Source: Branchiostoma lanceolatum (Eukaryota > Chordata > Leptocardii > Amphioxiformes > Branchiostomatidae). From it: 64,000 nt of DNA. A program made the position numbers and the translations under genes. Shown one piece after another: positions 28,835-61,500 of the stretch. The DNA is taken from NCBI RefSeq assembly GCF_035083965.1, contig NC_089727.1:11103501-11167500 (forward strand), given 5' to 3'. Position 1 is the first letter of the stretch, and every line of letters starts with the position of its first letter. Below the pieces are notes generated by a model. It was not told the DNA's origin. It made no database searches and saw only the letters and a list, made by a program, of their open reading frames with translations.

Positions 28835-28949
28835 TTTACATGTACAGTGGTCCTCTTGTATGACCTCATACACCTTCATACTTTATTGCAGACAGTAACA
28901 ATAAGAACCTCGGACAAATTCTTGACTACGGTACATCAGCTGTGCAACC

Positions 28950-31900
28950 ATGAAAACTACAGGGAGACCAAGGCCTCACACACACATACTACTGAATCTG
29001 ATGGTGTGTCTGTCCCTGTGCTCCATTCATGGATGCCCAAACAACATCCTCGGAAGAGTGAACTGCAGAGAAAAGAATCTCTTGGCAGTGCCAAGCGGAA
29101 TTCCGGCCACCAATGTCACAGCTGACAACACCTTCCCCACAGTCAGACTAGACTTGCAGTTCAACTCAATAAGCGTCTTGGAACATGGCATATTTTCTAA
29201 CCTCACCAGCTTGCAAACCTTGAACATCTACAACAACAGGATACGTAGCATCCAAACAGGAGCCTTCATGGGGCTGGAAAATGTCACAACTCTTGACCTA
29301 ACCAGCAATCGGTTAGAGTCCTTAACAGAGGGAATGTTATCCGGGCTCCATTACGTAGAATACTTGGCTTTCAGCTATAACGACATAGCATACATGAGTG
29401 AGAACATTTTGGGTAGTTTTCCACGGTTGAAAGTGCTGAAGCTTGGATCAAACAAGCTGACGTCTTTGCCATCGTTTGCCACACATCCTCGTGAGAACCT
29501 CGAGCAACTCTACCTGCAGTACAACAGCCTCTCCCTGGTGCCATCCAGCACTTTGAACCAACTGCCAAGCCTTACAACTCTGGACCTATCAGGAAACCAG
29601 CTTACTCAGACCATCCCCGAGCCATTTACAGGAGTTCCTCTTCTCCATAGCCTTCAGTTGAATGACATAAAAACAGAACTGAGTTCTCACTTCACAGGAC
29701 AAATTTTCACAGGATTACAACAGCTTGCAATATTAGAACTGAATAATAATAGTATGGATGCTATTCCTTTCAATCTTCCCAAATATGTGCCCAACCTTGA
29801 GCAACTGTCCCTTCAGCGTAATAATCTGACTCAGATTCCGAATGATATCTTCTTCCCCCTCCCTAACTTGACCCATCTTGATTTTTGGTTTAATACCATC
29901 CAAACAATAGACATTGGTGCCTTCAGTGGTCTTCCCATGCTCAACAATCTAATCCTATCCAACAATATGTTGTCCACAGTTTCTGAGGGGACACTGGAGA
30001 ACATTACCCATGATGCCTATGTGTACCTGGACAGTAATCCCTTCAGTTGTGACTGTCGCCTGGCATGGCTGAGAGACTGGTACCAGTCTTCCAGTGTCCA
30101 CAGAATTTTCTACCCGACATGTGATACGCCCTCTGGACTGAAAAATCAAATGATTGCTGACATACCCTTTGAAAGCTTTATCTGTGTTGCCCCCAATATA
30201 GTTCAGGTTGAAAATGATTTGACAGCAGTAGATGCAGGGACTGTGACGTTACACTGCAACACCACAGGTTTTCCTGCACCCGTTGTCACATGGACACTAC
30301 CAGATGGAAGCATACAGAATGGTAACACCATACATGTCACAACCGCATCACACAGTGAAGGGACGTACACATGCCAAGCCAGCAATGTTGGTGGCAATGA
30401 CACACTTTCAATAGTCCTTAGTAGTCTTTCACTTTCCCCACAAAATAAGGAGCTTCAGCTCACTACAGAAGTCACAAGAATTTCCACATTCACTGGCCAT
30501 GGTTCATCTTTAGCCCCAGTAGGGAATGTGCAAAATGTTTCTAATGGTTCCAATCCTATCATTGGCATTGTTTTCGGCTCACTTGCATTTTTTATCATAG
30601 TTGTCATGGTTATTCTTGCCTTCACCTGCCACAAAGGTCACTGTTGGGGTCAAAAATCCTGCTTACACCAGGAGAGAAAAAACAAAAAGGCAGGACAAGA
30701 TCAGGAGGTTGTTATCACTCTTGAGGATGTAGAAATTACACCAACAGGGGAGGAGAACATTTATTCCACCCCAGAGGAGCCGGCATGTCCTGTAGAACAC
30801 TACTCTTCTTCGAGCAGAGGTCATCAAGGACAGTTAGGCATGAAACAGACTATGAGTATGACAACAGAAGATGAATGGGCATCTGACCATCACTATGAGG
30901 TACCCTCACATCTCAACCACAAGTATGGAAATATACATGGTAAAACCAATGGGACGACACAACCCTGTTACAACAGTCCTGGTGATCACAGTTCACCCTG
31001 TCACTCTGTAGGGTCGAAGGCAAACAAGTCTCAGAGTCCATTTCGTGCAGTTCTCACCTCCCCAATAAATCATGACAGTTGCAGTGAATCACGAGAAACC
31101 GATTATCCTGGGTCCCTGCCACGTGGCAAGATGGTGATCCCAAACCATGGCCAGGATAGGCCCGCTCTCCCTGCCAGGTTTCACAACATGTCCAGTGGAA
31201 ATCATCAGTCAGGATTCATACATGCCCCAGTGTCAAGTTACCCTACCGAGCCCATCTATGAGAACATACAAGAGGACAACTTCAGTGACAATAGAACGAG
31301 CCACACGCCTCCGAGACACACCATATCATTTGGTTACCATTCAGTCACACCAGAAAGAGCCTCCTGGCCAAACCGACAAAATCGAAGGCGCAGGAAAGAC
31401 CTTAGACAAAATACGCTGCCAGGCGCAGGTAGAGATAAACACAGCAACCAAGAGATCACAATTCACGGCTCCCGCCACTATAGTCCTTCCAGTCAGCAGA
31501 TGATGCCAAACATGGCTAGTGGCTTGGTGTCCCGGGCAGGGCCAATACCCACAGGCAATGGTCCTCCGAAACCACTGCATTCAAGTGCGGCAAAATTCCA
31601 TGCTATGGCCTATATGCTAACAAACACGGAAGGTGGGAGGAAAGTTCTGAGAAATCCTTCCAAACATCTACCCAACAAGCATCCCTCTGATGAAGCAAGA
31701 GATCCCACTGACTACATCATGGAAGAAAAGTCCAAACTCGACACAAAGGAAAAACTAAAGCATAAGGACAAATACAAATCTGAAAAAGCAAAAGCTGGAC
31801 AACAGAATAAGCTGCAAAAGGAAAGAGAGCCTCTTCCTGCTGGTCTAGTGATGAGTATTGCTAAATCTGTAACATCTGGTGATAGGACTGAAACACAGAC

Positions 31901-31964
31901 ATCCGGTAGTGTAAAGGCAGAGAAAATAGGAAGGTCAAGAAACATGTCTAAGCCATGGTATTGA
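28950..31964 (+). CDS. Single-pass LRR and immunoglobulin domain receptor (LRRIG type)
   Basis: One exon encodes 1004 residues; the ATG has a good context (ACCATGA). Residues 12-28 are a signal peptide. Cys29-Cys39 start an N-terminal LRR cap, and about 12 leucine-rich repeats fill 60-360. A C-terminal cap (NPFSCDCRLAWLRDW) covers 363-412, one C2-type Ig domain 413-493 (Cys near 435 and 474), and a membrane helix about 536-561. The roughly 440-residue cytoplasmic tail is low complexity and basic near its end. It carries tyrosines in SH2-type contexts: NIYSTPEE (Y605), HYEVPS (Y649) and IYENIQ (Y770). This is the AMIGO/LINGO/LRIG-like architecture of cell adhesion or guidance receptors, a group expanded in lancelets. 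The exact orthologue and ligand are unknown. Its 3' end faces AADAT. Confidence 0.88.
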   Translation: MKTTGRPRPHTHILLNLMVCLSLCSIHGCPNNILGRVNCREKNLLAVPSGIPATNVTADNTFPTVRLDLQFNSISVLEHGIFSNLTSLQTLNIYNNRIRSIQTGAFMGLENVTTLDLTSNRLESLTEGMLSGLHYVEYLAFSYNDIAYMSENILGSFPRLKVLKLGSNKLTSLPSFATHPRENLEQLYLQYNSLSLVPSSTLNQLPSLTTLDLSGNQLTQTIPEPFTGVPLLHSLQLNDIKTELSSHFTGQIFTGLQQLAILELNNNSMDAIPFNLPKYVPNLEQLSLQRNNLTQIPNDIFFPLPNLTHLDFWFNTIQTIDIGAFSGLPMLNNLILSNNMLSTVSEGTLENITHDAYVYLDSNPFSCDCRLAWLRDWYQSSSVHRIFYPTCDTPSGLKNQMIADIPFESFICVAPNIVQVENDLTAVDAGTVTLHCNTTGFPAPVVTWTLPDGSIQNGNTIHVTTASHSEGTYTCQASNVGGNDTLSIVLSSLSLSPQNKELQLTTEVTRISTFTGHGSSLAPVGNVQNVSNGSNPIIGIVFGSLAFFIIVVMVILAFTCHKGHCWGQKSCLHQERKNKKAGQDQEVVITLEDVEITPTGEENIYSTPEEPACPVEHYSSSSRGHQGQLGMKQTMSMTTEDEWASDHHYEVPSHLNHKYGNIHGKTNGTTQPCYNSPGDHSSPCHSVGSKANKSQSPFRAVLTSPINHDSCSESRETDYPGSLPRGKMVIPNHGQDRPALPARFHNMSSGNHQSGFIHAPVSSYPTEPIYENIQEDNFSDNRTSHTPPRHTISFGYHSVTPERASWPNRQNRRRRKDLRQNTLPGAGRDKHSNQEITIHGSRHYSPSSQQMMPNMASGLVSRAGPIPTGNGPPKPLHSSAAKFHAMAYMLTNTEGGRKVLRNPSKHLPNKHPSDEARDPTDYIMEEKSKLDTKEKLKHKDKYKSEKAKAGQQNKLQKEREPLPAGLVMSIAKSVTSGDRTETQTSGSVKAEKIGRSRNMSKPWY

Positions 31965-32087
31965 ACTGGATGTAATCTGGATGTAAACTATCATGGTTTT
32001 TCAAACAAATCAGAATAATTATATGTTTATGGTCCTGGCATAAGAATTGGTTTCTTGTATAAATGAGCAAACACCACTATCTCTTTT

Positions 32088-32230
32088 GTCCAGTAAGCAA
32101 AATACAGCCGCTATAACATTCTTATTTGAGTTATAAAACTTTTTGGATGACAAGTAGATTCTACTTGTCATCCAAAAAGTTTTATAACTCAAATAAGAAT
32201 GTTATAGCGGCTGTATTTTGCTTACTGGAC
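32088..32230. repeat. Perfect palindrome with 71-bp arms
   Basis: Bases 32088-32158 are exactly the reverse complement of 32160-32230, with a single T between. The arms begin GTCCAGTAAGC. Imperfect pairing continues about 12 bp further out. It lies 124 bp after the receptor stop codon and before an AATAAA at about 32329, so it is probably in that gene's 3' UTR. Confidence 0.9.
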
Positions 32231-32304
32231 GAAGTAGATATTTCTTGAAAGTTTTGTCATATTTCTAGATGTTTAAGGCTATGTCTTAAAAGTTAATTCA
32301 GTTT

Positions 32305-35300: not shown

Positions 35301-38300
35301 GGTTGGATCCTGCGGAGACCGTGTAGAACACCCTTGGAATGTCTGACCACACGTCCGCACTCTCCGCAGGGTTCCAGTTGGACAGGATCTTGCGCAGGGA
35401 ACTTATCTTCGGTCCCTGCTCATCTGTCTCCACCTCCAGGATATTACATCCCATTGGTTTTGCCTACAGAAGGGGGAACAGTTCATCAGTTTAGACATTT
35501 CCAGTTTCATATCCACCTACCGTGGCAGCCAACTCATTTGGTACAAGCCCAATAAGCTCACAGTTTGAGGTGCACATGTGGGTTATGATTCAAAATTAAA
35601 GGCTTCTCAGGCAATACTATCAGAATGGCCAGGGGCCTTCAACTTGACATATTGCACACAGTATACATTGATCACACTTCGCATGTGAACTTAAACCATG
35701 AACTGGCTTTTTGAGATGAAGGCATACTTGCCTTTAAAAAAGTTTAAGCATCATGTGACAAAATATCTATCTGCTCTGTTTAGTGAAACAATATTCAGAT
35801 GATTCTTATTGATATACAGAATGTATATCATTGTACAGGTATACTCACAATAGACAGTATTCCAGGATATGTCGGGGTCTCGATCAGGACATTGTCACCT
35901 TGAGTCACCAGCATCTCCATAGTCTGATTTAGAAAAAAAAACATGTTGAATTTAAAGTGATGAATTTCACATATATCTCATTGCTTTTAAAGACCAACAT
36001 TCTTGCATATTTTGCACAATACACCAGATACACAGTCTCAGTACCTTGCACATGGCCTCCTGGCTGCCTGCTGTCACACACAAGTCCATCTTTCCCTCAT
36101 GATGCAGGTAGTCGGTGGGGGGGTTGTGTTTTCTCCTTTGAAGCTGCTTCCCCCATTCTACCATCTCTGGATGCCTAGAGATGACCCAAGTAGACATATA
36201 CTGTAATTCACTTTGTCTTCATGGTAGCAAAATATCATCATGGTGTAAGGAAAATGGACATTTTCACTGAACTTTAACTTCACGGTGGCGGCAAGTGATT
36301 TACAGAATGGATGTGTGAAGGAATCATAAATAATTACAACAGGTTTTTACTGTGATGATAAGTTCACGGTACAGAGTAACAGAGGTGACCGTGAAAACAG
36401 TGAAAGAACAAGAATTACAGTAATTCAACATCTGCAATCATAATGTGTAATTAGACAAACATCTTTTTGCTGGTTTTATAGGTGCTTGAAGAGCTTATTA
36501 TACTGTACTTTTAAAAAGACAGATGCATAAGAATGAGCCCAAATATCCTGACTTTCATGCAGGTTTGAGATTCCTCCATTGAAGCAAGCGGAAAGCTGAC
36601 ATGTGTTATAACAAAGAATTGTGCCTACCCTTGTGACATGGTGTACTGCAGACCCTGGTTCATCCAGAGTGGGGACAGGTCAAGTTTCTTCCCCTTCCTG
36701 TAAAGCAAAAAGGCATGATGTAATGAACATTATGCTGGTGCACCTAGCAAATAAAGAAGTATGCTATGATAATATTGCTGGCTTCCATATTAACGTTTCT
36801 CTACATTCGTTAGATCATGAAATCATGAAATTCTTACAATGGTTTTGTTTTAGCAGAAACCTCTTACCACAAAATCATAGCATAACTATGCATCTGCATG
36901 AGTTTTGTTGAAATTGGTCAATCCCAAACTTCAAACACTGCGAAAACATCCTTTAACCATCCCACCGCAAAGTCAAAAACCAAGTCAAAAGTACATGTAT
37001 TAACAGTAGCACTATTACAGGTTAGATAACCTACTTGGTGAACAGGTGTGCAGAGGACAGTGGGAAGCAGGAGGTGTTGGGCATGCCTGTCGACAGGGCG
37101 ATCAGCGATCCCGGAGTCGCCCGCTGCTGGATCTCAACTGCAAGGACAACATCAATATATATTAGCTAAAAGATCTTTAAAAGACTACATGTTCCATTAG
37201 CATATCTTTAACTTTGTTATAGAAAAATTCAATACATGTTACACTGACTGCGCTAGTAGACTCACCCGATATTTTCCACCCGATCTAACTACAGATGAGT
37301 TTACTGAAGACTTGGAGACAATGCATGATGGATGGCCTGTCAGCAAGCAGACCGATTATGATAAGGTCCATTGCAAATGTCACTTGTAGCAACTACCTCC
37401 AGCTTGGAGCACACTCCCGGTGTAGTGTCCTTTCTCTGCCATATTTGGATAGGTGGAGTGAGAATCTAGGTCAGAAGTTTAGAAATCTAGTTCGCTGGGG
37501 CTCCTAGGATCGTTTTGGTTGTTATTCTGGCTCTGTAGGTTGTGCTGTCGAGGAGTTACTTTTGTTTTTCTGACACCACCCCCTTCCACGTCAATCGTTT
37601 CATTAAAAAAACTTTGCCTTTCTACATATGCTTGGAGCTCCTCAAGTTTTGGAACATGCACAGAGGTTTTTTTGGCGGGATGCATGATGTTCAGCACGTG
37701 CTTGTGATGATAGATCAACTGGGGTGGGTCGAAAACCCTTTTCAAAGCTACAATGCTAGATTCGGTGTCCCGATAACTCCCACCAGTGCGAAATCGGATA
37801 CCACATAAGTAGGTCACCTGTCATCGACCTGCGTGCCGGGATGCCAGACAGTGCTATTAGACGAGGTATAGAGTGACAGGAAGACATCCACAGAGTTTGT
37901 GCAGATGGATTGCAGAAATTCCTGTGCAATTTTGGGAATTCTTGTAAATCGGGCGTAAAATTATTAAAGGCAGGCTAAACTAAAATTTCGTAAAGCATAC
38001 TGCAGTATGTTAAATATACCACTAAGACCAGTTCTGACTTGTTTTACGCTAGTCCATCATAGATTAGCGTTTTTACAACATTTGAAATTCGCGGTGTGGT
38101 GATGTCCAAAGCCCTTTGACCTTTCAGACGTCAGATTCCGAGTGGGAGGAATGGCGTCTGGAGCAATTCCTATGGTGAAGGTGTGGCCGACTCGGATTCT
38201 AACGTCACAAAGGTCAAAGGTCTTTGGACATCGCCAGTATTACATCACCACACCGCGAATTTCAAATATTGTAAAAACGCTAATCTATGATGGACTCATG

Positions 38301-41300
38301 TAGAAGAAGTCAGAACTGGTCTTAGTGGTATATTTAACATACTGCAGTATGCTTTACGAAATTAAGTTCAGCCTGCCTTTAAGCTCGCTCCTGAACCTTT
38401 GCCAAAAACAGTATAAACCTTCTTCTTGGGGGAGGTAATTGACATTTCATGTAAAAGTAGGCTGTGAACACCACAACCGCATGCTCCGTTATGCCCTTTA
38501 GGCAAATTTATCTGCGATTGACTTGATGGCATACGAAGATGACTGCCCCGCGCCAATCGCGACACTCAAATCAAAATTCCACAAAGACTGTTATGGATAC
38601 TCATTTTACCCTCAAACTGTGAGAGGCTGGAATTCACTACCTTAGGACGTCACGGACATAGCCGATCCTCCCAAGTTCAAGGAGGCTGAGTGCTCCTGCA
38701 CCTGAGAGGACAATAACAGCGCAGCGCACTCCCCTGGGCGCTAAAATTACCCCAACAAGAGGGGTGTTAACATGTTGCCCAGTACTCGATCAAGAAGATC
38801 AAGATCAAGATTTTGTCCTTAACGCTTAACGATGAATTCAGGATAACCAAAGAGGTTTTGTAAAACCTCCTTGGGATAACAAATAACGTGCCACCACATA
38901 GAAACTAAGCGACCAATCACGCTTCATTTTGGATCCTTGCAGTTATAATTTTTTACCGACACAGAAGACATGGAGACCCGCTGAATAACTCACCCAATCC
39001 ACGCAGAGGCGAGGCTGCCCTGGTCTTAGCCACAGCGTTCAGAAACTTGGCGTAGTTCATCTTTACAACAACACTCATTATGATCGGAAAACCTCGTCAG
39101 CAGTATGCCGACATTGCCTGGCCTCGTGAACTTCTCATGAACTCCAAGGTTAGTCCATTTATTAACCTGGGGGTGGCGCCAGTGGTGTCATTTTACCACG
39201 GCCGAAGTTAGGCCATGTTGATTTGATTACATGGATGACATCCCTTTGGTCACAAAAATTGATGTGAGCGTGCGAATAGAAATAATTATAAGTTTTGCAA
39301 AAAAAAGTTGTCTTCGTTGTGAAATCTAATGGGTCAGGAATGTTGATCAAATTGATTAACACACAGAGTATGGTCTACCGAATAATAGATTCTTCTTCTC
39401 TTTTTCTTCATCTTCTTTGACTTTGGCATACTATGACATTACTAGCCGTTTCACGAAATACTTTTCTGCAATTCACGGCATAACGTTATATCTACTAGTT
39501 TGCTTTGTACTATTTACAGTATGAGTATGGTCTAAAACTTCTTTTTTTTTTATTTTTGGAAACGGATGGCCTTGTGGACAGGATGCTCCTGTCAATAAGA
39601 ATTGCGGGTTTCTTTGCTGTCGATAAGAATTTTTGTACACTTTTTGTGCCCTCTTAAGTACTAGTATTTTTTTCTCAACAGTTAACTGTTAATGTGTGGT
39701 GGGAGCTGGGGGCAAGAAAGGTTTTAGAAGGAGCACCGGTCTGACCGGACGCGCGGGCAATGGGGAAAACAACGTTATAACCCGACCATATGATTTTTAA
39801 GAACACCCCTCCCTCGGACCTCCGGCTAAACATCAAAGAATTTTAGATCTGTGCAACTAAAAGTACTCTAAGAGTAGTCTGCACATGTATGGTCATGTAT
39901 CAGTGTCGTGCGCTCGTGCCCATTGTTGTTACCCAATACAACTTGACTACGTACTAGGCCGAAGGGGCCCACTGTCGAACTTGACCTTCGTTTTCCCAAA
40001 TCCTACCCACCTACAAGATATAACAGGTGAGTGGGAGTTGGGAAAACGAAGGTCAGGTTAATAAGGATCGATCCACAGCTTCTGCAGTTATGCTGTCCAT
40101 AGGCGCACGCGCACTCACAGGCGGACACGGCACAAAACATAACCTTCTTGGCGATGGTAACAACTTTAACAAAATATTCCAAGCATTTTACATTATATTT
40201 TATTGAAAATGGTAGGTAACTTTATTGTTTATGACATCAAGTACATGTTGAGTTTCCTAAAACAGCCTACTCAGTTCAACGTTCTGTTGTCGTTTTTATC
40301 TGAAGAAAAACACCATTTGGGGAAACTGCTGCAGTGGAAGGTAGTCTGGTTAGTCCTCTGTACATGTATACTGGTGAATCATTAGAGACTAATTCCTACC
40401 AGTGCCCTAGAATAATGTCCTTACTAGATCGTAATGCTAATCAAGACGCCGTCGAAAATTCGGACATCGAATTTGGGCATCTGAATTAGTGTTCTTACTT
40501 TGTTTTGTTATATCTGGAACCTGAGCCGGTCAGAATCCCGCCAGTCGGATCGCTGTCCCGGACTCCGTGCAACCCGACGCACGGGCAGTGATCTCAAGGA
40601 CATTATATACTACAAGATATTTATATACAAAATTGGCATTGCGCTATTCGAAACAATTCCAAACTTTCCTTTCTTTCTACCTTGAACAAGAATTATAAGC
40701 AAGAAAATTACCTTTCAAACATTAAGAGCCTTGATGTACATAGGGCAATCACAAAATTCAGAATTGTCTGTCATAAATTAAGTATAGAAACGGGGAGATT
40801 TCAAAAACTTCCTATCGACCAGAGGGTTTGTCCATTTTGTCCAGAGGTAGTTGAAGACGAATATCACTTTTTGATTGTATGTCCCAAATATTTTGATATA
40901 CGTAATTCACTATACTCAATGCTATCGTCGGATTTACCAGGATTTATCTCAATGGACTTGAATAGCAAATTTTAGTACATAATGACATGTGACAACCCAT
41001 GCATGGTATACATTGGGAAGTATATCAAAGAATGTCTAGACGTTCGAAACTCCTCCAACAAGAGTTCCGCGACCTCATATCTCCATGAACTATTCTGTTT
41101 ATGCAAATGACTTTCACATTCACATAATATATGCTTGGTCATGAACACATTTAACCAACTTACACATGTCGCAATGTTGACAAACCTTCATCTAACACTT
41201 AGATGAATTATGGCGCTTTTGCATTAATTATGCAAATTAGGAATATATATTTGCATAATTGGTAACTGTTGATACTTCACTTGCCATAAACTACATCTTT

Positions 41301-43609
41301 TACATGTATTTGAGTCTTGTAATGGAAAACACTTGCAAATGTAGATTTTCATCATTAGTTATGCAAATTAAGTCCAAATTAGCATAATTTGCACTTTACT
41401 GTGTACATCTCTTTCTAAGCTACCTGCATACTAAATATCATGGAAATCCGTCTTTCCTTTGTTCAGTTATTCCCCTTAGAAGATTTTCACAATAACGCCC
41501 CTGCAGTTCCTGTGCAAGCTGCTAGGGAGCCCAAACCGACACCACTTCTTTATTACATCACAAGCTATTTGCCACCCAAAAATTAAGACCATAGCACGTC
41601 CAGGTCAAAAGATACAAAAATGGAAGTTATGTTGCAGTACCAAGGTCACATACCAGGGAGCCCAAAATCGACCTTGAACTTCGGCTTCACAACACCTGCC
41701 CACATACCAAATATCATCTTAATCTATCAAGAGGTTCTTGAGTTATGCTGACTAGAGTAGTGCGGAAACACAAACAGACAGACAGACACACCCAAAACAA
41801 TATCTCAATTTTTCATGGAGATAATGACTGTAAAATCCCATTGTCATCCCATACTACTACACCATATTGTATAAGATAGACTGATTAGCCTTATAGAATG
41901 TTATCCATGTACCAGTGAATTCCATACTTTGTACCTTGCACAATTGTTGTGCAATAAAGTTATGTTTATAATGGATAATTTCCTTGGTGACCTCGGCATG
42001 GAAACATCATCGCAAGTATTGTATATGTATTTGTCGCGCGCTCATGCTCAAACTGATGCTGTTACTCACCTAAGTTGCTCAAAAACTCAGTGTTCCTGGC
42101 TCTGCTGACAGCAGTCAGAAACCGTCCGTAGTTCATTTTGTTCTTGACTGCGACAACTTAGCTTTTGAAAGTTACAAGCGATACAAAGTATGCTCGATCC
42201 GTCCCACTGCCAACCAATAGATCGACAGACAACGGTGCATGCCGTTGCACCGGTTTATCTTCAAGGCTAAGACATGTAAATTGTAATAGCACATTTCATT
42301 TTCTGTCAGGGGTCGACGATAGGTCAAGTCCATCTATCTAGGACTAGAACAGGCTACTTTCTCAGTCCCTCTATCTAGGACTAGAACAGGCTACTTTCTC
42401 AGTCCCTCTGTATATCTAGGACTAGAACAGGCTACTTTCTCAGTCCCTCTGTATATCTAGGACTAGAACAGGCTACTTTCTCAGTCCTGTATATCTAGGA
42501 CTAGAACAGGCTACTTTCTCAGTCCCTCTACATATCTAGGACTAAAACAGGCTACTTTATGTCTATCGTATTTTTTATCTGAAGAAAAAGTTTGCATCAG
42601 GAGAATTTCAGCTGTTCATTTGGATGAATGTCTGAAGTGGAATGCAGTCTGCCTCGACACGTTTAATACGTTCAACATTTTAGTATTCTGTATTTCTCGT
42701 ATTTAAGTGTCTATTCCCTAGGAGTCCCCTATAGCCGCGAGCTAATCAAGACGCTGTCGAAAATCTAAATATCGGATTCAAACGTTAGAATTGTTGTTCT
42801 AACATTTTTGTTGTCTTTTATAAATCCTTAAGCTGCCACTCTTGGAAAAATCCGTATGTTTTTTTAACTAGTAGAAATCCAGAATCCCGCCTGTCGGATC
42901 GCCGTCCAGGACACCATGTTTGTCACTTCCATTCTACAACAACTTTCATGGTGTCTATCTGGAAAAATTACCCATCTTTTTTTCGCCCTCTCGCATTGAA
43001 TTTGGTGTCTGCAGAGGATATCATCCACAAAATTTACATGATATTGGCCTTACGTAAAGTGCACTGAGTACGCTCTACACTAGTAAAGTAGGACAGGCCG
43101 ACTACACATTACGTAGAATCAAGAATCAATTATTTCAAACCTCCTTGGTAGAATCAAAATATATATCGCTCTACGGGAAAGGGCATGGACCACCTAGAAC
43201 CCCGGCCCCAGTCAGTTAAGGAATCCCACCAGTCGGATACTGGCCGGCCCGGCGGCCCCGGACTCCGGTGCAAGTGTAATCTCCATTCCAAGCAGATCTA
43301 CACGGTGCCAAAATCGTATAACTGGCTAGCCAGAGAAGCTCCAGTCGGCCAGAGAAGGTCCAGTCAGGCACCGTAGTTCTCTGGCTGACAGGAGCTTCTC
43401 TGGCTAGCTTATACGATGTTGGCACCGTGTAGATCTCGGCTCGGAGATTCAGAGTGCGCGTGCACTTCGGCATGGAAACATTGACACGATTACTGTACAC
43501 TGTATGTCGCGCGCTCATGCTCAAACTGATGCTGTTACTCACCTAAGTTGCTCAAAAACTCAGTGTTCCTGGCTCTGCTGACAGCCGTCAGAAATCGTGC
43601 GTAGTTCAT
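32305..43609 (-). CDS. AADAT: Kynurenine/alpha-aminoadipate aminotransferase, mitochondrial
   Basis: Twelve common exons follow one of three first exons: 37137-37035, 36697-36629, 36174-36045, 35923-35849, 35463-35254, 35071-35006, 34735-34653, 34115-34019, 33700-33639, 33347-33283, 33089-32985 and 32483-32380. With a 67-bp first exon these give 412 codons in register with human KAT2. The enzyme is a PLP fold-type I transaminase that acts on L-kynurenine and 2-aminoadipate. PLP Lys falls at 263 (SFSKIL), Asn202 in SNPTG, Tyr233 in DDPYYF, and substrate Arg399 in SPYIRAS, the same numbers as in human. The N-terminus MNYARFLTAVSRARN is a basic amphipathic presequence. The last about 13 residues are not resolved: the frame runs past a weak donor at 32379 to a stop at 32305-32307, or a small last exon was missed. 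Confidence 0.93.
34221..34308. mobile_element. Hairpin MITE in AADAT intron 8
   Basis: Two 42-bp arms, starting TTAGCCTGAGTGTCATCCT and ending with its complement, are separated by CACC. Only two or three mismatches interrupt the stem. It is non-coding. The family is not recognised. Confidence 0.8.
36195..36424. mobile_element. TACTGTAATTC-ended MITE in AADAT intron 3
   Basis: TACTGTAATTC on the left pairs with GAATTACAGTA on the right. Words such as CTTCATGGT and TTCACGGT recur inside. It resembles the other TACTGTAA-ended elements of this window but is a separate subfamily. Confidence 0.6.
37479..37817 (-). CDS. Orphan 112-codon open frame in AADAT intron 1
   Basis: The frame encodes LKRVFDPPQLIYHHKHVLNI and VHVPKLEELQAYVERQSF with non-random composition, and ends in an Asn/Gln-rich tail. 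No family was recognised. It lies inside AADAT intron 1 on the same strand. It could be a transposon-derived exon or an unrelated retrocopy. Confidence 0.2.
   Translation of the reverse strand: MTYLCGIRFRTGGSYRDTESSIVALKRVFDPPQLIYHHKHVLNIMHPAKKTSVHVPKLEELQAYVERQSFFNETIDVEGGGVRKTKVTPRQHNLQSQNNNQNDPRSPSELDF
37964..38382. mobile_element. TTAA-flanked MITE with about 150-bp inverted repeats
   Basis: The element is 37968-38378, with TTAA on both sides. The ends read AGGCAGGCT inward, and the arms stay about 90% complementary for roughly 150 bp (shared CATACTGCAGTATG, CACTAAGACCAGTTCTGACT and CGCGGTGTGGTGATG). TTAA target use points to the Kolobok or piggyBac groups. No transposase is present. Confidence 0.85.
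38480..38710 (+). pseudogene. CR1/L2-type LINE 3' fragment
   Basis: The plus-strand frame around 38590-38706 reads YGYSFYPQTVRGWNSLP, a stop, then DVTDIADPPKFKEA. This is the conserved C-terminal motif (SFFPRTxxEWNxLP) of CR1/L2-like ORF2 proteins. The in-frame stop shows it is dead. Confidence 0.6.
38994..39060 (-). other. AADAT: AADAT first exon A
   Basis: Encodes MNYAKFLNAVAKTRAASPLRGL plus one base, then a GT donor at 38993. An in-frame ATG 18 bp upstream could add MSVVVK. It joins exon 2 in phase. It is the most diverged of the three and the nearest to the gene body. Confidence 0.8.
39979..40059. repeat. Hairpin repeat near 40.0 kb
   Basis: TGACCTTCGTTTTCCCAA and TTGGGAAAACGAAGGTCA are exact complements, with partial pairing further in (ACCCACCT against AGGTGAGTGGG). 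The stem is about 35 bp with a 10-base loop. It is non-coding, between first exons A and B. Confidence 0.75.
40682..40975 (+). pseudogene. LINE reverse-transcriptase C-terminal fragment
   Basis: The 97-codon frame contains RVCPFCPEVVEDEYHFLIVC followed by PKYFDIRNSLYSML, the same CxxC...EDEYHFxxxCPxY tail as at 15820-16227 but better preserved. The upstream polymerase domain is missing. Confidence 0.65.
41200..41960. repeat. AT-rich dispersed repeat with octamer words and a CAGA run
   Basis: It contains TTATGCAAATT and AATTAGCATAATTTGCAC words like those of the 46-kb satellite, then a later segment ending in (CAGA)n near 41772. It has the look of a retroelement 3' tail. No open frame was found. 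Confidence 0.35.
42070..42136 (-). other. AADAT: AADAT first exon B
   Basis: Encodes MNYGRFLTAVSRARNTEFLS plus NL and one base, then the donor GTGAGT. The length and phase equal those of exons A and C. The exon and about 40 bp of its intron side are nearly identical to exon C. Confidence 0.8.
42333..42561. repeat. Minisatellite, 38-41 bp, six copies
   Basis: Six copies of a unit beginning TATCTAGGACTAGAACAGG and continuing CTACTTTCTCAGTCCCTCT lie head to tail just upstream of AADAT first exon B. Copies are nearly identical except the last (ACTAAAACAGG). Confidence 0.9.
43276..43450. mobile_element. Hairpin MITE upstream of the AADAT first exons
   Basis: AGATCTACACGGTGCCAA pairs with TTGGCACCGTGTAGATCT, and GCTAGCCAGAGAAGCT with AGCTTCTCTGGCTAGC. 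The arms are about 65 bp with few mismatches around a centre of about 45 bp. It lies between first exons B and C. Confidence 0.8.
43543..43609 (-). other. AADAT: AADAT first exon C
   Basis: Encodes MNYARFLTAVSRARNTEFLS plus NL and one base, then GTGAGT. It differs from exon B by a few bases, with one residue change (Ala4 for Gly4). It is the most distal first exon found. Confidence 0.8.
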
Positions 43610-43771
43610 TCTTGTTGTTGACTGCGACAAGATAGCTTTTAAAGTTGATCGGTGTCGCTACCAACGAAAAAGGGTGGTGCGGTTATTCGCGCTGAAATAC
43701 GGGCCAGATAGAACAGGTAGCATTGAAGACAAACCAGTTAGTCAAGACCCATGTGGAAATTTCCACTGGCA

Positions 43772-45229: not shown

Positions 45230-46350
45230 TAGGATGGGTGAAAGTGCGATGAAGGTTCGGTTAACACAGACAAAGAGATGGGTTTTATCATACTACGTAC
45301 AGCTGAAAGGTTAACCCTGTTCATTGGCGGGTAAAAGTAATGCTCCGGTCCCAGTTGGAACAAGAGAGGTGTTTAAAGAACACACCGGCGATGTGAGAAT
45401 TGTGCAAAGTAGGTCCTCATTTGCATGATTTATATCTTACTATGTTAGCCTTCACGAAACCTTCAAGTGCCACAAATATAAAGTTTCCGTTAATTAGAAA
45501 TATGGAATAATAGTATTTTCAACTTGATTATGCAAATTAAGTCTCAACTTTGATAATTTTACATCTATCCATATCCCTATCTTTCTCAGTAACATATCAC
45601 ATGTTTAGATAGTCCAATCATTGAACGCAGCGGGTTTGTAAAGTTTCTCATCATGCCACAATACCCTTACATATACTGCAGCAGAACTAAAGAGCCTGAA
45701 CAGCCATTACCCAGTTTGCAAGGTAGCTCTGTGCCGTATCAAACAATGCAGAATTGCCAGCTATGTAGGACGGTATAGAGGATGCAGGGGGGGTTCACAC
45801 CGCCGTTTCAGAATAGGTGTTGTGGTGGGTAGACGCCCATATCAGAAGAAGACTTACACCTAGGCGTACCCCACTCCCTTCTGTTCCCCCATGTGAACCT
45901 GGCTCTAGTAGTGACCAAAAAGCCTGTACCAAAGGCAAAGCAGTGCACATGCTTCCCTCAGTGTAACGTTACATGTGTAATGCAAGATCACTAGTGCGCG
46001 ATCGCCACACGTTGGCGATCTTGCTGCGACAGACCGATTTGACAACGCGCTCAACGAATTTCATCGATAAAAAACGAATATTTTTACGCTTTGTGTTTTT
46101 GTTGTCTTTTTTGTAATGCTTGTATGTTTTGCATGATATTCCCACAGCCAAGTCAAGGGTAACACAAATCCAATTAAGGACGCAGCGAGGTCGCTAACAT
46201 GTTGCGGGTCCAGTCACATGGCGTGATCAGTAGCGGACGCAGCCATCATGAGCCCGGCGCTGACTTTTTGATATAAGGCCCAAATGCAAAAATGAATTGA
46301 ATACTAGAAAGGCAACATTTTCAGGAAAATGCAGGATATTCCCCTTCCAT
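45230..46350. other. Gene-free spacer before the octamer satellite
   Basis: No gene was recognised. It includes TTATGCAAATTAAG near 45528, similar to the satellite beside it, and GGTTCACAC near 45793 facing GTGAACCTGG near 45893, possibly ends of a small element. Confidence 0.35.
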
Positions 46351-47745
46351 TACCTACACCTGAAATATGACATCCTTAGCATTGACTGTAATGGTATTAT
46401 GAAGTTTCTGCATATATTATGCGAACGAGGTCTGCAATAGCATAATTTATGGTCAGTTGTATTCACCTTTCGTAAAGGTACCTACATGTCAAATATGACA
46501 TCCGTAGCTTTTATGGCAAGGGATATGCATAAATTATGCATAAGGCCCTAATTATCATAATTTATGGCCATGCATGTTTTCTGACCTTTCCTAAATGTAC
46601 CTACATCTCAAATATGACATCCGTAGCCTTGACAGGAAAGACAAGTACATGCCTAAATTATGCAAATAAGGTCAGCATTAGCATGATTTATAGCCAGGTG
46701 TGTTCACTTTTTCTAAAGGTACCTACATCTCAAATATGACATCCATTGCTTTAATGGTGAGGAAAGTACAAGTTTATGCATACATTATGCAAATGGAGCC
46801 CTTATTAGCATAATTTATGGCCAGGTGTTTTCGCCTGTCCTAAAGGTACCTACATCTGAAATATGACATCCGTAGCTTTCATGGTATGGGGAATACAAGT
46901 TTATGCGTAAATTATGCAAATATGGTCCTCATTAGCATAATTTATGGCCAGATGTATTCACCTTTCCTAAAGGTACCTACAACTCAAATATGACATCCGT
47001 AGCTTTTACGGTAAGGAAAATACAAGTTTCTGCATAAATTATGCAAATGAGGTCCTCATTAGCATAATTCATGGCCAGGTGCGTTGACCTCTCTTAAAGG
47101 CACCGACATCTCAAATCTGACATCTGTAGCTTTCATGGTAAGGGAAATACAAGTTTATGCCTAAATTATGCAAATGAGGTCTGCATTAGCTTAATTTATG
47201 GCCAGGTGTGTTCGCCTTTCCTAAAGATACCCACAACTCAAATGTGACATCCGTAGCTTTTACGGTAAGGAAAAAACAAGTTTATGCATAAATTATGCAA
47301 ATGAGGTCCTCATTAGCATAATTTATGGCCAGATATATTCACCTTTCCTAAAGGTACCTACATCTCAAATATGACATCTGCAGCTTTTACGGCAGGGGAA
47401 ATACAAGTTTATGCATAAATTATGCAAATGAGGTCCTCATTAGCATAATTTATGGCCAGGTGTGTTAACCTTTCCTAAAGGTACCTACATCTCAAATATG
47501 ACATCTGCAGCTTTTACGGTAAGGGAAATACACATTTATGCATAAATTATGCGAATGAGGTCCTCATTAGCATAAGTTATGTCCAGGTGCATTCATATTT
47601 CCTAAAAGATGACATCCGCGGCTCTTACGGTAAGGGAAATACAAGTTTATGCATAGATTATGCAAATTAGGTCCTCATTAGCATAATTTATTGTCAGGTG
47701 TATTCACCTTTCCTATAGGTACCTGCATCTCAAATATAGCATCCG
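46351..47745. repeat. 126-bp satellite with a POU octamer in most units
   Basis: Eleven to twelve head-to-tail units each contain CCTACATCTCAAATATGACA, then ATTATGCAAATGAGG and ATTAGCATAATTTATGGCCA. ATGCAAAT is the octamer bound by POU-family factors; it is exact in about eight units, facing a near-complement (TTAGCATAAT) some 12 bp later. Units lie 120-128 bp apart and differ by a few percent; the outer copies are more diverged. Confidence 0.9.
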
Positions 47746-48840
47746 TACCATGTTACATATAGTACATATAACTTTCTGCAACATCATTAGTAGAGCTACC
47801 ACCGCACATCTACTTGGTTTTTGGCAGAAGAAGAAGAAGAAGAAGAACAGGCAAGCAAAAACAGTATATCCCCCTTCCCACTGGAAGGGGAATATAATTA
47901 TCTGAAAACCCTCTCGGTGACATGGAATTGACTCTCTCAGTCTCTGTACGGTCGTAATCTCAGACATCATCCATTCTCTCTCTTAGTTACAGTCTCTATA
48001 CGTTTGTACACTATATTAGAAATTTGCTTGAAAATCATTTCATGGAAGAGTTCTACTTTTGATTTTTGGACTTCTCTGTAATGGAATGAACTGCTACCTG
48101 GTCTGTGGAGGAGACCAGAGTCATGATATCACTAGCGGTTTCGAGCTGAACTGCATTTATTTTAGGTTGTTGTGGATCTAATTTTGGACAGGATTCAGGC
48201 AGACAGATTTCACAAACCCTGTTACTAATGCAAATGACCTAAGCAGGATTAACCCCGAGCCTGAGTGAATACAGATTCACGAACCGTGGTATTAACAGGA
48301 TCTTATTGTTGAAGGCACTTGAGGATTGGAATGTAACTTGGCATGTAATTGCTTTTGCACGTGTCATGGTACATTGTGCACACAACGAGAGTGGTAACAA
48401 TATGTGAACTGATTTCTGTTCTTTTGGATATGAATAATTATATAATGGGAATGATATACTGAAATCCATTCATAAATAGTCATCTAAATCAACCTCAAAA
48501 TGGTAAGTCTAAAAGTTGGAAGGACTCAAAGTAAGAGAAACCTTCACTTTATTCCATAAATTGTGTTGTGCTGTAACACTGATTCTTAAAAAAAGATAAA
48601 AATGGGAAAACACAAGTGCTGTTAATTCATCAAACTTCAAACCAATATTGTATGTTACAATAATATCTGCCAGGACAATACCTATATAATTGTCTATCAT
48701 TTGCATCAGGCACTCCACTAACATCATAGCAAAGTCATAAAGAAGCAAAAAGAAAACATTACAAATACAGAGAATGACAGGCATTCCCTACTTTCAACTT
48801 CTCTTTGCTGCCTAATGCGGTTAACCAAAATAAACTTGAG
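47746..48840. other. Gene-free spacer
   Basis: Apart from an (AAG)n run near 47825, no repeat or gene was recognised. Confidence 0.4.
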
Positions 48841-53398: not shown

Positions 53399-55288
53399 CT
53401 ACTTGAAATCTGTGTCAAAGTTGTAACTGTCGTCCTCTCCCAGACCAAAGTCCATGGCTGCAGACAATGTGTCAGACAGCTGGGTGGACAGCTTGTCGGC
53501 CCTTTTCTGCTGCTTCTTCCTTCTTTTCTGTGCCACTTTGGCAGCCTTTCCCAGCTGGAGATTTCCCTCAAGCACTGAGGGGATCTCGAGGCCTGTACCA
53601 GGCTTCTCTTTTGGGACAGAGTCAGGCTCAGACTTCTTTTCCTTAGACTTAACACTGACCGAAATGGTGCTCAGTTCAGCAAGGTTACTTTCTGGGACAT
53701 GCTTGATGGACTCATCTTCCTCTTCATCCATTTCATCTATTTCCTCGCCATCTTCTGAACTCATTTCTTCATCTTCTTCTACTTCCTCCTCTTCATCTCC
53801 CTCCTCCTCCTGCATGGTTCCTTCCATCGGACCCATGGACTCCATGGCCATCATGTGACTGGTGGTTTCCATGGTGAGGTTTCCGAGAACTTTGTCAATG
53901 TCCTTCTCTATTGTGCTGATGTCAAAAGCCTTTCCCATCTCGGATACAATCTCGGCTCCAAGATGGACAGGCATGTTGTGGGACTCTGGAGGATGGGTGA
54001 AGTAGGTGATTTTCCCAATTGTCCAGTCCTGTAGCACGAGCTTGGCTGCTTTGTCGACATCTGGCACTCCCCCTTTCTTCAACTTCCCCTGTCGTTTGGC
54101 AAGGAGTGCCAGAAACTCGTGGACGTTGGCGTAGTCTGGAACACCGTAGTGGAGCATGATCTGCTGCTTGTTGCACCTGCGCAGGATGGCGTCAACCGGA
54201 GTGACCACGTCGGCAATGTTTTCCACCTTCAGACAGTTACGGAGGATGAGAGCAGCATCTGACAGCCCCGACGTCATGACGATACCGGGACTGTCAATCA
54301 ACTTGATGTGCTTGTCGATCTGAACCTCTTGCAGAGTCTTGGTGACCCCAGGAGTCCCACCGACGGCACAGGCACGGGAACGCTTCAGACTGTTGATGAT
54401 GGAGCTCTTTCCAACGTTGGGGAGCCCGATGATCCCGACAGAAATGGTGGTCTTGATGTTCATGTTGCGGCAGTAGTTGTTGAGGAGTTGCATGAGACTG
54501 TCTGCTCCCAGGCAGCGGCTGGACGTCAGCAGGTCCTTGTTGGCCAGGTTGACTGGGACTTTGCTCTGAGAAAGATTATGGGTCTGGCTCTGGGTAGATG
54601 CTTTGAAGGCTATGGTTGGAAACTCATTCCGAAGATACTTGAGCCACTTTTCCACGATCTCGCGGGGTACCAAGTCTATCTTGTTCAGGATGATCACAAT
54701 CCGCTTGTTGGGACCAGCGGCGAGGATGGACTGTTCCACCTGAGGGCAGCGACAACCCAGAGGATCTCTGGCATCTAATACCTCCAGCACAACATCAGCT
54801 GCCTCAACCACCTTCCTGAACTCTCTGTAAAAGGCTTTCCGTGAACTCTCCGTACTCTTCACGCCTTTGTTGGAAGCATCTGTCTCCATTTGTAGCATGG
54901 TGGCCTGCTTCTGATCAAATGCCTTTTGCCTTTTGAGAGCATCCTTCTGTAGGCTGGCCACGTCTCGTTTAGCCTTCTCCGCCTTACGTTTCTTTTCCAA
55001 CATCTTCTGTCTTTTGACTTTGCGCTGTTCTCTCTCCTCTTCAGCCTTCTGCTTTCTCTTCTGGGCTTCCCGCAATATCTGTTCCTTGAAAGGAGCTTCT
55101 GAGGGCACTCCTGGATCTTTCCTGGCTCTTGATACCTTGGTAGCAGTGCCCTTCTTCTTTGCCGCTTTGCGAACTTTCCTGTTGTGCTCCTTTATCTTTT
55201 TCTTGATCTTGTATTTCTTGTGGCAGGTGAGACGCTTGCTCTGCTTGTTCTTGAAGGGTCTGTTTGTCATGTTGACTTCTTTACTCAC
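53399..55288 (-). CDS. GNL3: Nucleostemin-family nucleolar GTPase (GNL3/GNL3L pro-orthologue)
   Basis: A single uninterrupted exon encodes 629 residues. A Lys/Arg-rich N-terminus (SKRLTCHKKYKIKKKIKEHN) is the nucleolar and RNA-binding part seen in vertebrate GNL3. A coiled coil covers about 65-130. The circularly permuted GTPase domain follows: DARDPLG (172), G4 NKID (202), G1 GLPNVGKSS (288), G2 near TPGVT (312) and G3 DSPG (332). The middle and the RRKKQQKRADKLSTQLSD block resemble GNL3L, whereas the end EDDSYNFDTDFK resembles GNL3. An acidic run occupies about 490-540. The family acts in the nucleolus in 60S maturation and growth control. A second ATG seven codons in (MTNRPFKN) could also start it. 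An untranslated first exon is likely near 55790. The choice between GNL3 and GNL3L as symbol is arbitrary. Confidence 0.92.
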   Translation of the reverse strand: MSKEVNMTNRPFKNKQSKRLTCHKKYKIKKKIKEHNRKVRKAAKKKGTATKVSRARKDPGVPSEAPFKEQILREAQKRKQKAEEEREQRKVKRQKMLEKKRKAEKAKRDVASLQKDALKRQKAFDQKQATMLQMETDASNKGVKSTESSRKAFYREFRKVVEAADVVLEVLDARDPLGCRCPQVEQSILAAGPNKRIVIILNKIDLVPREIVEKWLKYLRNEFPTIAFKASTQSQTHNLSQSKVPVNLANKDLLTSSRCLGADSLMQLLNNYCRNMNIKTTISVGIIGLPNVGKSSIINSLKRSRACAVGGTPGVTKTLQEVQIDKHIKLIDSPGIVMTSGLSDAALILRNCLKVENIADVVTPVDAILRRCNKQQIMLHYGVPDYANVHEFLALLAKRQGKLKKGGVPDVDKAAKLVLQDWTIGKITYFTHPPESHNMPVHLGAEIVSEMGKAFDISTIEKDIDKVLGNLTMETTSHMMAMESMGPMEGTMQEEEGDEEEEVEEDEEMSSEDGEEIDEMDEEEDESIKHVPESNLAELSTISVSVKSKEKKSEPDSVPKEKPGTGLEIPSVLEGNLQLGKAAKVAQKRRKKQQKRADKLSTQLSDTLSAAMDFGLGEDDSYNFDTDFK

Positions 55289-55299
55289 AGAGTGGAGAG

Positions 55300-56050
55300 A
55301 AACTGTTCTGAAGCTGAAGTATGTCCTGAAATCAATAAATACTCATGAGGCCTTAAAACGTACTATAACCTTTGTACATACGCACATGTACTGCAAGGTA
55401 GTTTGTTGGTCTATCTAGGCACCCGTGATCACAATTTTGCATATCTTTCATGTTAGGGTAGCTTTCCTTAATATAATAGCACACAAAAAAATCACCTTGT
55501 GATGCTGAATACATTTGCACTTCTTCTCTTAGTACCTCACTCTCAGTCCGCCCCCCTCCCCCCAAAAACACGTGCAGACAGTTGGCTACACTTCTGAACA
55601 ACTGGTTTCTAAGTTATAGGACGTTAACGTCTATTAGCGTTACCTGCACAAGATAAAAACACTCACAATGCTAATATATGCTTCGTTGCAGAACTTAAGA
55701 CAAAACTAACCTTGATTACAGAAGCGCACGCTGGTGATAGCACTGAAAGTTGGAGCGAGTCCGTCACGCGTCGTCTACTTGGCAGTAGGCAGCCATGTTG
55801 GGCAAGTCTAGTTCTTGCAATGGGAGGGCTAATCCTGTTTGCCTAAGAATATAAATAGGCACGTCAATCAGTAAAATTACTACTAATCAGACAGGTATTA
55901 CAGCATTGATATATTAGATACTTATGATACTGATAGAATGATAAAAAACTTTATAAGGACCTAACTATAGAAAACTTACAACTCCCACCATATGGAGAAT
56001 GGAATAAGCCAGAGATTGCGCAACTCGTGACTTCCGCTTCCGCTGGCTGC
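55300..56050. other. Upstream region of the nucleostemin gene
   Basis: In minus sense a YY1-like word (CCAACATGGCTGCC) at about 55788-55801 followed by a possible donor (AAGTAGAC), and an AG acceptor at about 55308, would make an untranslated first exon and a 450-bp intron. The rest is AT-rich, with no further gene seen. Confidence 0.4.
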
Positions 56051-58500: not shown

Positions 58501-61500
58501 AACTACGACGGGCGAATGTTGGTGCACTCCGGGAATCACCTGAGTAGTTTTAACGTGATTTGCTGTACCATGATCATGACGTGCGCCGGGCGTACGATGT
58601 TGCACTCCGGGAGTGCCTGAGTAATTTTAACATGATTTGCTGTATCATGGTCATAAATGTGCGCCGGGCGTACGATGTTGCACTCCGGGAGTGCATGAGA
58701 AATTTTAACTTGCTGTACCATGGTTATGATGTGCGCCGGGCGTACGATGTTGCACTCCGGGAGTGCCTGAGTAATTTTTAACTTGCTCTGTTGTACCATG
58801 ATCATGATGTGCGCCGGGCGTACGATCTTGCACTCCGGGAGTGCCTGAGTAATTTTAACTTGCTTTGTTGTACCATGATCCTGACGTGCGCCCCGGCGGG
58901 CGTACGACGTTGCACTCCGGGAGTGCCTGAGTAATTTTAACTTGCTTTGCTCTATCGTAATCATGATGTGCGCTGAACGTACGACGTTGCACTCCGGGAG
59001 TGCCTGAGTAATTTTAACTTGCTCTGTTGTACCATGATTTTGATGTGCGCCGGGCGTACGATGTGGCACTCCGGGAGTGCCTGAAGTTTAACGTGATTTG
59101 TAGTACCATAATCATGATGTGCGCCGGGCGTACGATCTTGCACTCCGGGAGTGCCTGAGTAATTTTAACTTGCTCTGTTGTACCATGATCATGATGTGCG
59201 CCGGGCGTACGATGTTGCACTCCGGGAGTGCCTGAGTAATCTTAACTTGCTTTGTAGTACCATGATCATGATGTGCGCCGGGCGTACGATCTTGCACTCC
59301 GGGAGTGCCTGAGTAATCTTAACTTGCTCTGTTGTACCATGATCATGATGTGCGCCGGGCGTACGATCTTGCACTCCGGGAGTGCCTGAGTAATCTTAAC
59401 TTGCTTTGTTGTACCATGATCATGATGTGCGCCGGGCGTACGATCTTGCACTCCGGGAGTGCCTGAGTAATTTTAACTTGCTCTGTTGTACCATGATCAT
59501 GATGTGCGCCGGGCGTGCGATGTTGCACTCCGGGAGTGCCTGAGTAATCATCATGGCTTTACTTGCTCTGTCGCAATATGATCAGGATGTGCGCCGGGCG
59601 TACGATGTTGCACTCCGGGAGTGCCTGAGAAATTTTAACGTGAGTGGCTGTATCATGGTCATGATGTGCGCCGGGCGTACGATGTTGCACTCCGGGAGTG
59701 CCTGAAGTTTAACTGGATTTGTTGTATCATGATCATGATGTGCGCCGGGCGTACGATGTTGCACTCCGGGAGTGCCTGAAGTTTAACTTGATTTGTGGTA
59801 TCATGGTCATGATGTGCGCCGGGCGTACAATGTTGCACTCCGGGAGTGCCTGACGTTTAACTGGATTTGTTGTATCATGGTCATGATGTGCGCCGGGCGT
59901 ACGATGTTACACTCCGGGAGTGCCTGAGTAAGTTTAACTTGATTTGTTGTACCATGATCATGATGTGCGATGGGCGTACGATGTTGCACTCCGGGAGTGC
60001 CTGAAGTTTAACTGGATTTGTTGTATCATGGTCATGATGTGCGCCGGGCGTACAATGTTGCACTCCGGGAGCGCCTGAAGTTTAACTTGATTTGTTGTAC
60101 CATGATCATGATGTGCGCCGGGCGTACGATGTTGCACTCCGGGAGTGCCTGAGTAAGTTTAACTTGATTTGTTGTATCATGATCATGATGTGCGCCGGGC
60201 GTACAATGTTGCACTCCGGGAGCGCCTGAAGTTTAACTTGATTTGTTGTACCATGATCATGATGTGCGCCGGGCGTACGATGTTGCACTCCGGGAGTGCC
60301 TGAAGTTTAACTGGATTTGTTGTATCATGGTCATGATGTGCGCCGGGCGTACAATGTTGCACTCCGGGAGTGCCTGAAGTTTAACTGGATTTGTTGTATC
60401 ATGGTCATGATGTGCGCCGGGCGTACAATGTTGCACTCCGGGAGTGGCTGAAGTTTAACTTGATTTGTTGTACCATGATCATGATGTGCGCCGGGCGTAC
60501 AATGTTGCACTCCGGGAGTGGCTGAAGTTTAACTGGATTTGTTGTATCATGATCATGATGTGCGCCGGGCGTACAATGTTGCACTCCGGGAGTGCCTGAA
60601 GTTTAACTTGATTTGTTGTATCATGGTCATGATGTGCGCCGGGCGTACAATGTTGCACTCCGGGAGTGCCTGAAGTTTAACTTGATTTGTTGTATCATGG
60701 TCATGATGTGCGCCGGGCGTACAATGTTGCACTCCGGGAGTGGCTGAAGTTTAACTTGATTTGTTGTACCATGATCATGATGTGCGCCGGGCGTACGATG
60801 TTGCACTCCGGGAGTGCCTGAAGTTTAACTTGATTTGTTGTAACATGATCATGATGTGCGCCGGGCGTACGATGTTGCACTCCGGGAGTGCCTGAGTAAG
60901 TTTAACTTGATTTGTTGTACCATGATCATGATGTGCGCTGGGCGTACGATGTTGCACTCCGGGAGTGCCTGAAGTTTAACTGGATTTGTTGTATCATGGT
61001 CATGATGTGCGCCGGGCGTACAATGTTGCACTCCGGGAGTGCCTGAAGTTTAACTTGATTTGTTGTACCATGATCATGATGTGCGCCGGGCGTACGATGT
61101 TGGCACTCCGGGAGTGCCTGAAGTTTAACTTGATTTGTTGTAACATGATCATGATGTGCGCCGGGCGTACGATGTTGCACTCCGGGAGTGCCTGAGTAAG
61201 TTTAACTTGATTTGTTGTACCATGATCATGATGTGCGCTGGGCGTACGATGTTGCACTCCGGGAGTGCCTGAAGTTTAACTTGATTTGTTGTAACATGAT
61301 CATGATGTGCGCCGGGCGTACGATGTTGCACTCCGGGAGTGCCTGAATAAGTTTAACTTGATTTGTTGTACCATGATCATGATGTGCGCTGGGCGTACGA
61401 TGTTGCACTCCGGGAGTGCCTGAAGTTTAACTGGATTTGTTGTATCATGGTCATGATGTGCGCCGGGCGTACAATGTTGCACTCCGGGAGTGCCTGAAGT

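Follow-up and report, generated by a model that had tools for sequence, protein, structure and literature searches.

The AADAT locus of Branchiostoma lanceolatum raises the question of what three homologous coding first exons, arranged in tandem in front of a single gene body, could do for the enzyme that the gene encodes. The window analysed here is the whole stretch of 64,000 nucleotides of contig NC_089727.1 from position 11,103,501 to 11,167,500, and all coordinates are counted from its first letter. It contains one complete 14-exon AADAT (kynurenine/alpha-aminoadipate aminotransferase, KAT II) gene on the minus strand, in which 13 exons (2-14), spanning 37137 to 26117, make up the common body:

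37137-37035, minus strand: exon 2, shared; acceptor CCTTGCAG; codes for the remaining lid, residues 23-39, and further
36697-36629, 36174-36045, 35923-35849, 35463-35254, 35071-35006 and 34735-34653, minus strand: shared exons 3-8 (within 36697-32380)
34115-34019, 33700-33639, 33347-33283, 33089-32985 and 32483-32380, minus strand: shared exons 9-13 (within 36697-32380); exons 3-13 match PF00155 and human KAT II
26176-26117, minus strand: exon 14, shared, the last exon, which carries the stop

Inspection of the splice signals of the body showed AG at 13/13 acceptors (exons 2-14) and GT at 12/12 donors (exons 2-13). The AADAT model is 49% identical to human KAT II over the whole length, matches PDB 3ue8 (human KAT II) with 478 bits over 1-426 and contains the PF00155 (aminotransferase class I/II) domain with an E value of 4e-21. 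Asn202, Tyr233, Lys263, Arg270 and Arg399, which comprise the PLP lysine and substrate- or PLP-contacting residues, are all identical in the shared body. The full-length similarity and the catalytic residues indicate that the product is a member of the AADAT/KAT II group of fold type I aminotransferases, with a predicted activity on kynurenine or aminoadipate.

The three full models were used as tblastn queries against the 64-kb window (E up to 10), and no further copy of exons 2-14 was found. The matches obtained were the gene's own exons, matches between B and C, and weak matches at E ≥ 1.4 with stop codons in four of five places, and a second gene body in the window was therefore rejected. 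The initial annotation, which had seen no second copy of the gene body, holds for the window in this respect, except that the shared exons are 2-14 and not 2-13.

The introns of the gene also hold features of their own:

28926-31964, plus strand: a single 1012-codon open frame, containing leucine-rich repeats plus an immunoglobulin domain, antisense in the last AADAT intron, a nested gene
32078-32240: 81-bp near-perfect hairpin (96%) in the last intron, perhaps a small transposon
37984-38363: 122-bp inverted repeat (95%) in intron 1, perhaps a small transposon

The first exons lie upstream of exon 2 on the same strand:

39060-38994, minus strand: first exon A, 67 bp, MNYAKFLNAVAKTRAASPLRGL, phase 1; Ser17 and Arg20 kept
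42136-42070, minus strand: first exon B, 67 bp, MNYGRFLTAVSRARNTEFLSNL, phase 1; Glu17 and Ser20
43609-43543, minus strand: first exon C, 67 bp, MNYARFLTAVSRARNTEFLSNL, phase 1; Glu17 and Ser20

The N-terminal start MNYxxFL is common to A, B and C, and each exon is followed by a donor of the GTGAG type (GTGAGTTA after A; GTGAGTAA after B and C). The description in the initial annotation of three 67-bp, phase-1 first exons that start with MNYxxFL, end at a GT donor and can each be joined to exon 2 was confirmed, and A, B or C together with exons 2-14 gives an open frame of 431 amino acids in every case. The donors scored 5.0 (A), 6.9 (B) and 6.9 (C) with a position weight matrix, compared with 1.3 to 10.0 for the gene's own 12 donors in a leave-one-out calculation. 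In both B and C the start codon (with A at −3), the frame, the donor and the exon length are intact. These tandem, homologous coding first exons in the same orientation and compatible phase, in front of a single body, form a variable-first-exon layout. Within 200 bp upstream of the ATG, the top-scoring AG sites reached 5.3 for A, 6.4 for B and 4.0 for C, scores that the 13 true acceptors of the gene also span (2.5 to 8.6), so untranslated exons may lie further upstream. No recognisable promoter was identified for B or C. On the minus strand at 39061-39078, an in-frame ATG precedes the ATG of A by 18 bases and would add MSVVVK to isoform A only.

The resemblance of the three exons to one another and to the human enzyme was compared with chance expectation. 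When all open 22-codon windows starting with ATG on both strands of the whole window (948 windows) were scored with BLOSUM62 against residues 1-22 of human KAT II, C (60), B (56) and A (56) took ranks 1-3, and the next score was 16. GT occurs at the donor position in 52/948 windows, A, B and C among these. With the full models, tblastn at E up to 10 linked neither A to B/C nor the reverse, and blastn gave an E value of 0.16 for A versus B/C; the kinship of A with B/C therefore rests on position-by-position comparison. In that comparison A and C have 38/67 bases and 11/22 residues in common, and the initial annotation was right that A differs at about half its residues. The A-C score was reached by 0 of 200,000 shuffles with positions kept, and a chance likeness of A to B/C was rejected. 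Residues 11-22 of A and C are weakly alike, their score being reached by 3,158 of 200,000 shuffles.

In human KAT II, residues 16-39 are described as a lid swapped onto the partner subunit, where it shields and shapes the partner's active site (PMC6400995); residues 15-33 move when substrate binds (PMC11354673), and residues 20-32 are termed the entrance gate (PMC4926479). Structures of the human enzyme place Arg20 in the active site (PMC4926479, PMC6279937), where it stacks on L-kynurenine and shares in the binding of glutamate, and fungal Aro8/AroH carry Lys at its position (PMC6279937). One resting-state human structure has the N-terminal arm rolled away from the active site (PMC4848902). 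Since exon 1 codes for residues 1-22 and the lid comprises residues 16-39, exon 1 enters the active-site lid. Residues 16-22 read A-S-P-L-R-G-L in A and T-E-F-L-S-N-L in B and C. At the ungapped exon-1 positions, Ser17 and Arg20 are both present in A, and B and C have Glu17 and Ser20 instead.

The conservation of these two positions was assessed in prokaryotic relatives (bacteria and archaea) that had been retrieved with two peptide patterns and ordered by their similarity to an archaeal enzyme; at least 593 were confirmed with the broader alignment A2 and the best 80 were aligned. In this sample, which is only part of the family, position 20 is Arg in 80/80 and position 17 is Ser in 79/80 of the best 80 of at least 593 relatives, and both positions lie outside the search patterns. 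Ser17 and Arg20 are also invariant in 5/5 aligned sequences of solved structures, human included. Serine at position 20 was not seen among the best 80 of at least 593 relatives or the five solved-structure sequences. With the two-sequence alignment A1, no relative was confirmed in genome contigs (70 pattern matches) or viral contigs (44 pattern matches). Exon 2 also departs from these relatives, with Thr at human Gly38 and at human Pro43. Each of these residues is invariant in 80/80 prokaryotic relatives (best 80 of at least 593), an invariance that may partly reflect selection because the search patterns took in that stretch. Given these two departures in exon 2, the pocket may be unusual whichever first exon is used.

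The two parts of exon 1 were then compared separately with the human enzyme. Over residues 1-15 the identity is 7/15 for A, 11/15 for B and 12/15 for C, and over residues 16-22 it is 3/7 for A and 0/7 for B and C. These identities indicate that B and C have kept the signal-like half and that the lid half is what changed, and the choice of first exon may alter the function of the enzyme besides its location.

The explanation that we prefer, and to which we give about an even chance of being right, is that this is one AADAT gene in which three alternative coding first exons would exchange the beginning of the lid together with the N-terminal signal, in a layout like that of UGT1A. Transcription starting before A, B or C would pick the N-terminus that is spliced to exon 2 and would thereby also determine how the lid begins; each first exon presumably has its own transcription start, so that B and C would be transcribed from separate, putative promoters. 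Exon 1 would consist of two parts, a positively charged stretch (residues 1-15), kept in B and C, and the start of the lid (residues 16-22). If A is chosen, the enzyme would carry the family-standard lid with Ser17 and Arg20; if B or C is chosen, it would carry a lid with Glu17 and Ser20 and would probably bind kynurenine- or glutamate-type substrates more weakly or differently. Because the lid of one human KAT II subunit covers the site of the other, mixed dimers would carry hybrid sites. The frame-compatible exons with usable donors, the single body and the two silent differences among the three coding differences between B and C were counted in favour of lid exchange. Counted against it were the resting-state human structure with its arm rolled away (PMC4848902), the high conservation of the B and C intron start and the weak likeness of A and C over residues 11-22. 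A further and speculative step, which we hold to be on the unlikely side, is that the choice of first exon tunes the turnover of kynurenic acid and aminoadipate, with the B and C forms acting as catalytically different or regulatory subunits that reshape the sites of A in mixed dimers.

The relations among the copies were traced through the exons and their flanks:

41990-42173, minus strand: B segment homologous to C, comprising 37 bp of 5′ flank, the exon and about 80 bp of intron; 89% identity over 186 columns
43464-43646, minus strand: C segment homologous to 41990-42173; 89% over 186 columns
40569-40257, minus strand: three short blocks upstream of A, colinear with blocks upstream of B, 73-87% identity
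42918-42542, minus strand: the matching blocks upstream of B, in the same order; the third overlaps local direct repeats

The B and C exons differ at 3/67 bases (64/67 the same, 96%), and two of the three differences are silent. The 37 bp before the ATG show 33 matches, 3 mismatches and 2 gap columns between B and C. In the intron the first 37 bases are all identical, followed by a fading stretch with 32 matches, 9 mismatches and 3 gap columns. Differences are thus fewer in the coding exon (3/67) than in the alignable flanks (17/82 columns; Fisher p = 0.004). However, conservation is better still over the first 37 bases of the B and C introns, so that a recent conversion tract explains the pattern as well as coding constraint does. 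The near-identity of B and C including the intron flank, as claimed in the initial annotation, stands for about 186 columns but does not extend to a whole promoter. Between A and C, nothing alignable was found next to the exon.

With an E limit of 0.01, the blocks upstream of A and B have no further match in the window, save part of B's third block in the adjoining direct repeats, and an 18-bp piece of the first block recurs at 43238-43221 with E 0.03-0.05. These blocks are compatible with an old tandem duplication that took upstream DNA along, but they could also be a dispersed repeat. An old duplication would have separated A from the ancestor of B and C, and a recent duplication or gene conversion would account for B versus C. 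The earlier proposal of a stepwise duplication of promoter plus presequence therefore fares well for the stepwise part (an old split of A from B/C and a recent B-C split or conversion); for the promoter part, the upstream blocks give weak support in the case of A and B, and B and C share only 37 bp of 5′ flank.

Several repeats and one frame lie around the first exons:

42330-42558: imperfect direct repeats of about 40 bp, upstream of B
43268-43465: imperfect palindrome (78% over 209 columns), which begins about 80 bases after C
40592-40975, plus strand, between A and B: 127-codon frame

The 127-codon frame at 40592-40975 gave no Pfam match; we take it to resemble the C-terminal end of a retrotransposon reverse transcriptase.

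The loss of the substrate-binding Arg20 counts against functional B and C in so far as a useless exon would show the same. B and C might be unused relics, copied from exon 1 or from the opening exon of a tandem paralogue since lost, and might have dropped out of transcription or splicing. Besides the loss of both Ser17 and Arg20, this explanation would account for a B-C similarity that is restricted to about 186 columns and is best conserved in the intron part, and for the repeats around B and C; the debris there is presumably transposon-like. However, a relic would hardly be expected to keep the start codon with A at −3, the frame, the donor and the exon length in both copies, and two of three coding differences are silent. 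Moreover, B and C are closer to human over residues 1-15 than the intact A, which is not what a decayed relic should show. Taking both sides together, we consider the relic explanation rather improbable but the one to be taken most seriously among the alternatives.

Another explanation confines the difference to targeting: A, B and C would be alternative presequences that differ in how efficiently they direct one identical mature enzyme to mitochondria or cytosol, residues 16-22 being cleaved off or tolerated. Exon 1 encodes exactly 22 residues, the length of the mitochondrial signal predicted for human KAT II (PMC11354673); if such a signal is removed, residues 16-22 would be missing from the mature enzyme. 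The net charge of the N-termini is positive throughout (A +4, B +2, C +2, human +3) and the maximal hydrophobic moment is 0.24 for A, 0.42 for B, 0.41 for C and 0.25 for human, figures that are not those of a trained import predictor. A review states that the N-terminal arm of aminotransferases also governs subcellular location (PMC6400995). On the other hand, Arg20 is found in 80/80 prokaryotic relatives (best 80 of at least 593), which have no mitochondrial import, and it belongs to the active site in human structures (PMC4926479, PMC6279937); in addition, the signal-like first half is best preserved in B and C, and it is in the lid half that they are changed. Since B and C alter the lid and all the N-termini are net positive, a change of targeting has no more support than a change of the active site. 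The reading of exon 1 as a targeting presequence in the initial annotation is consistent with the net positive N-termini but is incomplete, as B and C change exactly the part that belongs to the lid. Targeting as the sole difference appears unlikely.

An assembly artefact, in which B and C would be two alleles placed in tandem, is very improbable and was rejected. Their exons are 96% identical (64/67), but the alignment ends at about 186 columns and is flanked by unrelated sequence, and alleles joined in this way should match over most of the 1,473-bp spacing between B and C. Such an artefact would also leave A versus B/C unexplained.

Exchange of the lid by variable first exons, as preferred here, would have known parallels in layout. 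In UGT1A there are more than ten variable first exons, and the variable exon encodes the N-terminal domain. Tandem variable first exons joined to common downstream exons have been described for UGT1/UGT1A and GCNT2, with the variable acceptor-substrate pocket placed in the N-terminal domain (PMC1885805). Like UGT1A and GCNT2, the lancelet AADAT gene has tandem variable first exons and one common set of exons. Unlike UGT1A, its variable exon is 67 bp and encodes only an N-terminal stretch and the start of the lid, the product is an aminotransferase, there are three copies and their own promoters are putative. The gene resembles human AADAT/KAT II (PDB 3ue8, 2qlr, 2r2n) in its 49% identity, MNYARF-type start and catalytic residues, and differs from it in having three first exons, in the lack of Arg20 and Ser17 in B and C, and in the Thr at Gly38 and at Pro43 in exon 2. 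Another kynurenine aminotransferase with a choice of N-terminal exon is KAT III, in which alternative splicing of exon 2 is reported to set cytosolic or mitochondrial location (PMC11354673); however, KAT III is a different isozyme, in which one leader exon is included or skipped and there is no choice among homologous first exons. No report of variable first exons in AADAT was found among the matches listed in the open-licence literature. The layout as such is already known from UGT1 and GCNT2.

In mammals, kynurenic acid is considered to come mainly from KAT II, which is also a drug target and whose broad substrate range has been attributed to the unusual swapped N-terminal lid (PMC6400995, PMC11354673). 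If lid exchange is true, nature would have supplied a swap experiment in the form of one gene that combines the same body with two different lids. Such a gene would test whether the N-terminal 22 residues of KAT II are removed as an import signal or contribute to the active site, a question on which the predicted signal and the crystal structures disagree.

Elsewhere in the window, another open frame and two tandem arrays were observed:

53399-55342, minus strand: uninterrupted 647-codon frame with GN3L_Grn1 and MMR_HSR1 domains (GNL3/GNL3L-like), apparently intronless
58539-63117: tandem array with units of mostly 74/77 bp, in which one 61-nt segment is present in 59 copies
46326-47760: tandem array with units of about 127 bp
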